Part shown: positions 1-2,714 of the stretch, in pieces | Layout: every line of letters starts with the position of its first letter | Numbering within the stretch: position 1 is the first letter of the stretch | Origin: Clostridium sp. | GTDB taxonomy: Bacteria; Bacillota; Dethiobacteria; Dethiobacterales; Dethiobacteraceae | DNA: 53,859 nucleotides | Assembly (NCBI GenBank): GCA_018335695.1 | Contig: JAGXRV010000066.1 | Location: 1-53,859, forward strand | Direction: 5' to 3' | Made by a program: the position numbers and the translations under genes | Notes under the pieces: model-generated | Told to the model about the DNA's origin: nothing | The model's database searches: none | Seen by the model: the letters and a program-made list of their open reading frames with translations, nothing else

Positions 1-450
1 CTTGAGGCGATCTTGCAAGCCCAGCGGCAGCTATTATCTCTCGACCCTGCCGCTTTGCAGTTCGTTGCCCAGCAAGCCACCTGCCGGGTTCCCGCTACCT
101 GCCCGCCAGGGTTTCAGGGAAGGTATACGGTAAGATCTGGAGATACCATGTTTTTTATTGCCCGGCGGTTTGGAGTCACATTGCAGGCTTTAATTAGCGC
201 CAACCCGCACATTTCCAACCCTAATCTGATTTTCCCCTGTGACGTACTTTGTGTGCCTGGGGTGGATATTTGCCGGGTTCCCACTACTTGTCCTTCCGGA
301 TTTCAGGAAAGGTACACAGTAAAGCAGGGAGATACGATGTCTCTAATCGCCCGGCGGTTAGGGATCACACTGCAGGCTTTAATTAGCGCGAACCCGCACA
401 TTCCCGACCCCAATCTGATTTTCCCCTGTGACGTACTCTGTGTACCATAA
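1..450 (+). CDS. LysM repeat protein, 5' end outside window
   Basis: The frame is open to the left edge, so the start is probably outside; an internal TTG at 13 is the first candidate in view. The visible 149 codons hold two LysM modules of about 45 residues (roughly residues 38-82 and 103-147), each with the YTVxxGDTM start and an ISANPHI core. Each is preceded by a short Cys-containing linker (CRVPxTCP) and ends in FPCDVLCVP. The two modules are a recent tandem duplication, near-identical at DNA level. LysM binds peptidoglycan or chitin-like glycans, and the paired cysteines suggest an extracytoplasmic, possibly spore-coat or cell-wall protein. No catalytic domain is visible. The LysM assignment is secure; the specific role is unknown. 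Confidence 0.8.
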   Translation, partial: LEAILQAQRQLLSLDPAALQFVAQQATCRVPATCPPGFQGRYTVRSGDTMFFIARRFGVTLQALISANPHISNPNLIFPCDVLCVPGVDICRVPTTCPSGFQERYTVKQGDTMSLIARRLGITLQALISANPHIPDPNLIFPCDVLCVP

Positions 451-765: not shown

Positions 766-953
766 CCAGGTGGATAACCCCCTTGCGTGTGTGGTTCGCC
801 AGTCTCGGATTTTATTCCATCAGGAGACGTGTAAAGCGCACACGTCACCAAAAAGAAAAGAACCGTAGGTTTTTCCTACAGTCCTTTATTTTAGCGGTTT
901 GGTGTCGGGGACGGGACTTGAACCCGTATGTCGTAGACACACGCCCCTCAAAC
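766..953. repeat. Left direct repeat (attachment-site-like) with tRNA-Leu 3' fragment
   Basis: Matches 2496-2684 except for 5 instead of 6 C residues near 778. The segment 900-953 is the 3' part of tRNA-Leu, from CCA back to the anticodon loop, so this copy is a non-functional tRNA fragment. Just beyond it, 980-1001 contains AAACCGCT and GTAGGAAAAA, which are inverted matches to AGCGGTTT and TTTTTCCTAC inside the repeat. The element end therefore partly mirrors the tRNA flank. Confidence 0.85.
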
Positions 954-1196
954 TGATGGCCAATTCAATAAAATTGGCGAAACCGCTGACCGTAGGAAAA
1001 AGATGGATTATTCAATTCGCATTTTTTGCTGATTTCCTTAACGCCTAAAACGTGAATGTGTGTGGTAAAAAGGATTTTTGCGTTACTGGTACACGTCACG
1101 CTTTTTTTGTTGTCGTGTGTTATTTATCCTTTCTGCTCTGTGTCCGTTTCTCCTCCTTCCGCTCACAAAAGATGATCTAATTTTGCACCCACCAAA

Positions 1197-1542
1197 TTAC
1201 CTGACCCTATATGGCAGATTCAGAGTAATTTTTTCTGATTTACTGTACTTTGTCTCACCCATGATACGTTCGTTCGGTGATACAAGAACCGAACGCTTTC
1301 TGGCGAGGACGCCGGAGGGGGCCACCTGCCCCCTCACGGCTGTCCTGCCGCCCAGGTAACAACCGCCGGCGAAGAAGGTTACGCTGTGCTGTGGAAACTG
1401 CCGTTGCTATTCATATTGTGGACAGAGAGCTGCCCACAATCTAAACAGCAACTTGGACAACGCAAGCGTTGACCACAGTTACCACAGCACCCACCGCTGT
1501 TTGACGCTACGCTCAGGAACGGGGAACGGGTAAAAACCCTCA
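1197..1542 (-). ncRNA. Block of consecutive inverted repeats downstream of the recombinase (putative structured RNA or DNA)
   Basis: Dense strong inverted repeats: CGTTCGG/CCGAACG (about 1268-1295), GAGGGGG/CCCCCTC (about 1315-1335), then a nest of TGCTGTGG/CCACAGCA (1387-1394 with 1482-1489) enclosing GTTGCT/AGCAAC (1403-1408 with 1447-1452) and ATTGTGG/CCACAAT (1415-1421 with 1434-1440). A separate CAACGC/GCGTTG hairpin lies at 1458-1471. Read on the minus strand the block directly follows the recombinase and ends in a 21-codon open frame (1262-1197) that includes SEKITLNLP, like the start of a ribbon-helix-helix protein, but without a clear Shine-Dalgarno site. The structure is seen; that it is an RNA is inference. 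It could instead be a recombination or replication site. Confidence 0.4.
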
Positions 1543-2355
1543 TCAATCCCTAAACAAATATTCAACAGGACTAAATTGCCTGTGCATCTTCTGCAAATCA
1601 CTTCCCCATAAGTTAACATAGTTTCTCACCATATCCAAAGTTGAATGGCCTAATATCGCCTGCAGACTAAAGGCATCACCGCCGCGCATGATATACATTT
1701 TGGCGAAGGTATGCCTGAAGGTATGCGGACTGACCCTGACACCCTGCAGACGCGCTTTCTGGCCATAAATGCTTAACCTTTCCTGAACGTTTCGTCTCTG
1801 AATTGGCAAATTATCCGCACCGACAAAAAGAAACTGATTGCCTGGTATCTCTCCCCTAACCCGAATATACTTTTTAAGCGGCTCCTTTGTCCTTGGTGAC
1901 ACAAAAACACGTCTATGCTTACCGCCCTTACTCTCGGTGATTAAAACTTCGTTCTCGGTCAATTTTAAGTCGTATAACTTAATCCCCACCAACTCGGAAA
2001 GCCTTATGCCGGTATCTAGCAGTAAAAGCATAATGACATAATCCCTGAAGCCGACAAAAGTTGCTTTGTTTGGCATCGTAAGCAGTAAAGCCACTTGTTC
2101 CTCGGTGAAAGTTTCGATTATGGTTTTCTTTGTCTTTTGCTTGTCCAATCGGTCAGCAGGATTTTTGGAAACCATGGCTTCCGTTACCAGATAGCTGAAA
2201 AACTGCTTGAGACTTCTTAGCCTATGGTTGATGGTAGTAGGAGAAAGAGAATAATCCATCATACGCCGGATAACGTCCTTAATCATGGCTTCAGTAAGCA
2301 AGGCCGGATTAGTTGTATAATCCAACTCCTTCAAACTCTTGGCAACGGAATGCAA
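1543..2355 (-). CDS. Tyrosine recombinase/integrase, 5' end unclear
   Basis: XerC/D-like phage-integrase family member. All catalytic residues are visible: Arg in TGIRLSE, Lys in ESKGGKHRR, the HxxR box in SPHTFRHTF, His in LGHSTLD and the nucleophilic Tyr in VRNYVNL. Only 270 residues follow the first usual start (TTG at 2355), but the same frame stays open upstream to about 2550. That stretch encodes a typical N-terminal core-binding helix (GELTWEQAAEQFLDSLRLRN), giving a family-normal length of about 310. It has no ATG, GTG or TTG; CTG at 2499 lies at the edge of the right direct repeat. The gene may be truncated at its 5' end by the repeat junction, or use a rare start in a transcript running through tRNA-Leu. 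It probably catalyses integration at the tRNA. Confidence 0.85.
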   Translation of the reverse strand: MHSVAKSLKELDYTTNPALLTEAMIKDVIRRMMDYSLSPTTINHRLRSLKQFFSYLVTEAMVSKNPADRLDKQKTKKTIIETFTEEQVALLLTMPNKATFVGFRDYVIMLLLLDTGIRLSELVGIKLYDLKLTENEVLITESKGGKHRRVFVSPRTKEPLKKYIRVRGEIPGNQFLFVGADNLPIQRRNVQERLSIYGQKARLQGVRVSPHTFRHTFAKMYIMRGGDAFSLQAILGHSTLDMVRNYVNLWGSDLQKMHRQFSPVEYLFRD

Positions 2356-2495
2356 ATTCTCTTTGTGCCAGCGGCGAGTATGATAAGCCAGGTTTCTTAA
2401 CCTGAGACTGTCTAGGAACTGCTCCGCTGCCTGCTCCCAAGTTAATTCCCCTGACCGTTCGTCTATTTCATTTGCGATGGTTGTTCTGCGTTTTG

Positions 2496-2684
2496 CCAGG
2501 TGGATAACCCCCCTTGCGTGTGTGGTTCGCCAGTCTCGGATTTTATTCCATCAGGAGACGTGTAAAGCGCACACGTCACCAAAAAGAAAAGAACCGTAGG
2601 TTTTTCCTACAGTCCTTTATTTTAGCGGTTTGGTGTCGGGGACGGGACTTGAACCCGTATGTCGTAGACACACGCCCCTCAAAC
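2496..2684. repeat. Right direct repeat overlapping tRNA-Leu and the recombinase 5' edge
   Basis: Second copy of the 188-bp repeat. It runs from four bases on the 5' side of the anticodon of the intact tRNA-Leu gene through its 3' end, plus about 135 bp downstream. The boundary in the anticodon loop is a common crossover position for tRNA-targeting recombinases. Confidence 0.85.
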
Positions 2685-2714
2685 GTGCGCGTCTGCCAGT
2701 TCCGCCACCCCGAC
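2631..2714 (-). tRNA. tRNA-Leu (anticodon GAG)
   Basis: A complete cloverleaf can be drawn. The acceptor stem is GTCGGGG/CCCCGAC with an encoded ACCA end, the D arm has TGGCAGA, and the anticodon stem CACGT/GCGTG carries GAG at 2680-2678. There is a class II variable arm, and a T arm with GGGTTCAAGTCCC. The long variable arm and sequence match tRNA-Leu reading CUC/CUU codons. Its 3' part is duplicated at 900-953. Confidence 0.95.

Follow-up and report, generated by a model that had tools for sequence, protein, structure and literature searches.

Islands of Islander class 'A' lie in tRNA genes and have their attachment site in the anticodon loop; the search that defined them drops candidates under 2 kb (PMC4383910). 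Elements can stack at one site: a review describes how an incoming element accretes next to one that has decayed (PMC5704250). At ssrA in Dehalococcoides, several islands also stand in tandem, with repeats of the 3′ end of an RNA gene to mark them (PMC3146451).

The window examined here, a 53,859-nucleotide stretch of a Clostridium sp. contig (JAGXRV010000066.1, family Dethiobacteraceae), contains an element whose kind is already known (tRNA anticodon-loop islands with tandem accretion) and which is unusually small. As in class 'A', a tyrosine integrase stands by a rebuilt tRNA, a displaced 3′ fragment lies at the far end and the crossover is placed in the anticodon loop. Unlike those islands, the element spans only 1.73 kb from core to core, carries no cargo and has its far fragment followed by 134 bp of an integrase-side end. 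Site-specific stacking at one attachment site and a distal member devoid of an integrase are shared with CIMEs (PMC5704250). However, CIMEs keep both attachment sites after integrase loss, whereas the distal member here is a left end only, its far attachment site gone (no third core occurs beyond it ahead of the LysM gene), and would not itself be cis-mobilizable. The Dehalococcoides ssrA islands, some of which likewise have no integration genes, differ in using a serine recombinase and a 20-bp repeat (PMC3146451). Closest in position is a 28-kb island in the same tRNA of genome G014, where the gene order matches, the LysM gene again being on the far side, and the integrase is related (35–36% identical). 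That island is much larger, carries cargo and duplicates only a core of ~61 bp, with an unrelated terminator after its far tRNA fragment; a 188-bp duplication is therefore not inherent to this tRNA. The features of the locus are as follows.

534–765: MITE derived from a RAYT (IS200-like) element, with its 17-bp end present once more, next to A′; a longer relative lies at G000:C20:322-1208
766–899, minus strand: distal A′, 134 bp, ending one base past the integrase start codon; equal to 2496–2630 minus one C
900–953, minus strand: distal core, the displaced 3′ part of tRNA-Leu(GAG), assigned by repeat identity
954–1260: distal element end 'B', with a putative arm site ACACGTCAC at 1091–1099 and a hairpin GCCAATTCAATAAAATTGGC by the core
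1291–1352: strong hairpins, CGTTCGGT to ACCGAACG, plus a long G+C-rich stem, from folding
1386–1491: cruciform-like nested palindrome, from folding; similar palindromes occur in other genomes of the class
1543–2499, minus strand: intact XerC/D-like tyrosine recombinase (int), 318 amino acids, from its domain match and catalytic residues
2496–2630, minus strand: integrase-side end 'A', 135 bp, aligned with G003, Pelotomaculum and G499
2631–2684, minus strand: proximal attachment core, the tRNA 3′ part (anticodon loop to 3′ end) that the element would have supplied; identical to 900–953, with its border as in the G014 island
2631–2714, minus strand: complete tRNA-Leu(GAG) (ARAGORN; Rfam tRNA, 47.3 bits)
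2685–2714, minus strand: 5′ part of that tRNA, belonging to the host

A preliminary description of the window had proposed a mini integrative element at tRNA-Leu(GAG), with 188-bp repeats made of the tRNA 3′ part plus 130 bp around a 1.5-kb core that holds only a tyrosine recombinase and structured DNA. Our repeat search recovered this pair as a 188-bp copy at 766–953 and a 189-bp copy at 2496–2684, which differ by a single C in a homopolymer run (C5 in the left copy, C6 in the right). The run sets a one-base offset between two perfect matches, of 176 nt (778–953 and 2509–2684) and 17 nt (766–782 and 2496–2512), and the length and identity of the repeats far exceed chance. The repeat consists of 54 nt of tRNA-Leu(GAG), from the anticodon loop to the 3′ end, and, as measured here, 135 bp further; the block of core plus 135 bp was found at two places only in this genome, both of them repeat copies. 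The sequence between the repeats (954–2495) is 1,542 bp long with one substantial gene, int, and no relaxase-sized gene besides it, and the structure within it is real (fold z = −8.4 as DNA). The tRNA is complete at one end, where the intact recombinase adjoins it, and the displaced fragment at the opposite end has the same orientation. The integrative-element designation is further supported by the occurrence of the recombinase beside tRNA-Leu(GAG) elsewhere and by relatives' sites that have no recombinase.

The recombinase contains a Pfam Phage_integrase domain (E = 2e-31) and is closest to XerC/XerD among general models, yet falls far under their cut-offs. All six catalytic residues are kept (R166, K191, H259, R262, H285 and Y294), and the enzyme is presumably active. 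The first ATG, GTG or TTG of its frame is at position 2355, and starting there would cost the protein part of its N-terminal domain; the frame stays open up to and inside the repeat. There, a CTG at 2499–2497 sits eight bases after the Shine–Dalgarno sequence (SD) AAGGGGGG, and its counterparts in the alignment are a TTG in Pelotomaculum and a GTG in G499. On the basis of this spacing and alignment, the CTG is the probable, non-AUG, start codon. The repeat stops one base past it, that is, one base into int codon 2.

The 135-bp segment A contains the tRNA terminator hairpin, an arm palindrome CGTGTGCGCTTTACACG, the motif CACACGC, the SD AAGGGGGG and the CTG. The 9-bp sequence ACACGTCAC occurs three times in 54 kb (at 840 in A′, 1091 in B and 2571 in A) against 0.11 expected, a distribution that would fit putative arm sites on both sides of the core. 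In relatives from Dethiobacter sp. CROMO_SB3, Pelotomaculum and G499, an A region likewise lies between core and integrase and holds an arm-like palindrome, CGTGTGNNNYTNACACG, at a distance of ~58 bases from the end of the tRNA. Moreover, tRNA, A and int align with Pelotomaculum as a single 1,153-bp block at 67.9% identity. Because of this one-block alignment, and because the int SD and start codon lie inside it, A is probably the element's own integrase-side end rather than a captured host flank. Viral contigs searched for the pattern of tRNA end plus arm gave seven matches; no tRNA precedes any of them, and they were taken as chance.

A database scan showed that the integrase has relatives at the same site in other organisms. 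The relative in Dethiobacter sp. CROMO_SB3 is 97–98% identical, lacks ~145 bp and is split into two frames, and that in Pelotomaculum sp. PtaB.Bin104 is 68% identical; both are beside tRNA-Leu(GAG). A further relative in G499, 58–60% identical, has lost its C-terminal end. These findings answer one check put forward with the preliminary description, a search for the same recombinase near tRNA-Leu elsewhere. The other, a search for an empty tRNA-Leu site, was answered in G005, a member of the same family in which the LysM gene and tRNA-Leu lie ~940 bp apart with no element between them. Unoccupied tRNA-Leu(GAG) genes, lacking both A and a distal core, are present in G005, G010, G012, G016 and others; inside the genus, no unoccupied site without A was seen. 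Integrases of ~42–43% identity were also observed in Bacilli beside a tRNA-Leu 5′ half, in Paenibacillus tuaregi (genome G100; L155 and L158, at C4:1895817 and 1961284) and on Bacillus licheniformis pBL027-2 (L145, position 8586). The other end in P. tuaregi, 65 kb off, holds a complete tRNA-Leu(UAA) whose 5′ half is the same. In these Bacilli it is apparently the 5′ half of the tRNA that the element replaces, a polarity opposite to that in the window; 5′ fragments are a minority in Islander (159 of 3,919; PMC4383910).

RNA-family searches of the element returned the tRNA only, which leaves the structured region without a match among known families. The hairpin at 1386–1491 was not taken as an origin or attachment site, given its relatedness to palindromes from further genomes of this class. 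One such palindrome is in an intergenic stretch of G005:C38. Judged from these sequences, the palindrome in the window is probably not specific to the element. At the start of a G003 contig (C98; L054:1-70), six head-to-tail copies of ATGCGCAGGAT, which resembles a stretch of the RAYT gene, are joined to the element's hairpin, and the contig ends there.

We consider it likely that this is an ordinary tRNA-integrating tyrosine-integrase element and that the long repeat arose because a second element copy stood in tandem, of which the distal repeat copy is the truncated left end. The circular form would read int, structured DNA, B, core, A and int again. Its integration at the anticodon loop of tRNA-Leu(GAG) would have rebuilt the tRNA from the element's core and pushed the host's own 3′ part to the far end. 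A second copy, or a very close relative, would formerly have stood in tandem past the far core, and a deletion would have removed most of it; the RAYT-derived MITE now abuts the cut. Accretion presumably came before deletion. A part of an element, A′, is indeed joined at the distal core, and its integrase start signals make it best read as another copy's left end. Beyond A′, nothing is left of a second integrase, and the second copy is deduced only from this left end. The near-identity of A and A′ requires a recent duplication or gene conversion. The distal edge of the repeat coincides with the border of the MITE, which looks like an internally deleted RAYT/IS200-like element and has its 17-bp end doubled (732–748 and 749–765); similar MITE ends are scattered across the genome. 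Between the MITE and the LysM terminator, nothing recognisable as native tRNA flank was found.

Other arrays exist at the same tRNA. Contig L189 of G499 has the order core, A1, int1, cargo, core, A2 and int2, in which int1 is truncated and the cargo, judged by eye, comprises a HicA/HicB-like pair and a DnaD-like protein. On a 4.5-Mb contig of G521, tRNA-Leu is followed by an integrase of 39–41% identity and, 82 kb on, by a core with an int-less A of the window type, after which come further partial cores; the interval from the tRNA to the far core was scanned for tRNA and cores only. Ten window-type left ends were compared: the integrase is intact in two, damaged in two and absent from six. 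In all six int-less ends, unrelated DNA follows the breakpoint, and the match to int ends, as judged from alignment, at +4 nt from the start codon in the window's distal copy, +9 in G001, at most +12 in G009 (where the second core comes after a run of N, which makes the evidence weaker), +9 in G136, about +45 in G585 and about −12 in G521. After the int-less A of G136 (L169:1640-1755), the sequence encodes what, judged by eye, resembles the C-terminal end of a serine recombinase.

More of these breakpoints lie close to the int start than would be expected of random deletion, and some mechanism is missing from the explanation. Decay may have erased old pieces of the integrase, with A either retained or refreshed by recombination with incoming elements. 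That core and A with the int start signals form a recurrently retained unit, with cutting at the int start in several lineages and with the resulting int-less ends acting as long homologous landing sites for whichever element arrives next, strikes us as quite unlikely. Crossover at the int start, at the end of A, was also considered. Within the 188-bp identity its products equal those of an exchange in the anticodon loop. The loop is nevertheless favoured by the G014 island and by the 5′ border of the tRNA, and no fixed stop point is common to the int-less ends.

The preliminary description offered two explanations for the length of the repeats. One was that the element carries a captured flank: A would already have stood in the host DNA 3′ of tRNA-Leu, the element's attachment site would carry a matching 188-bp block, and integration would leave the long repeat at both ends. 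In G001, G136 and G585, A comes after tRNA-Leu(GAG) with no integrase behind it, which would look like such a site, and element and host termini can be related, as the distal flank terminator of G006 resembles that of the G014 element. However, parts of the int-less A still align as the SD and start codon of the integrase, joined in G585 by ~15 integrase codons, so that it looks like an element remnant. Furthermore, A is patchy in the class, carried by 4 of 98 genomes and missing beside the tRNA in most relatives. A captured flank is thus disfavoured, the 135 bp containing the int SD, start codon and putative arm sites, and we regard it as unlikely. The other explanation, a tandem duplication followed by insertion, comes closer; in place of a duplicated site, two tandem element copies, the distal one truncated, give the better account.

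Duplication need not have been site-specific: unequal crossing-over or a replication error might have doubled a unit of core, A and int, with later deletion of the second copy. The almost complete identity of A and A′ would fit, as would a palindrome-rich MITE at the junction, which could promote rearrangement. Such a process would nevertheless require an initial short repeat at both ends, and tandem arrays of the integrase type are known elsewhere at this tRNA; it is very unlikely in our estimation. The least probable account, a long shot, is an assembly artefact in which the 188-bp repeat served to join sequence from two strains, one with the full element and the other with an int-less scar beside the MITE. 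The draft comprises 101 contigs, has an estimated contamination of 3.7% and possibly represents a mixed population, and the window start shares 369 identical bases with another contig's end. Against this, the one-base difference indicates that the two copies were probably assembled apart, and some reads must contain the junction of A′ and the MITE in any case. The shared bases are window positions 1–369, which are the last 369 of contig C71 of the same genome, and the two contigs probably join.

The likely tandem origin of the repeat bears on how such loci are read. An intact integrase unit exists below the 2-kb limit of the standard island search (PMC4383910). An over-long attachment repeat can be read as the scar of a tandem integration, and it may serve as a cue to island history in draft genomes. 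In the relatives of Dethiobacter, the tRNA-Leu(GAG) gene beside the panBCD genes is marked as an integration hotspot.
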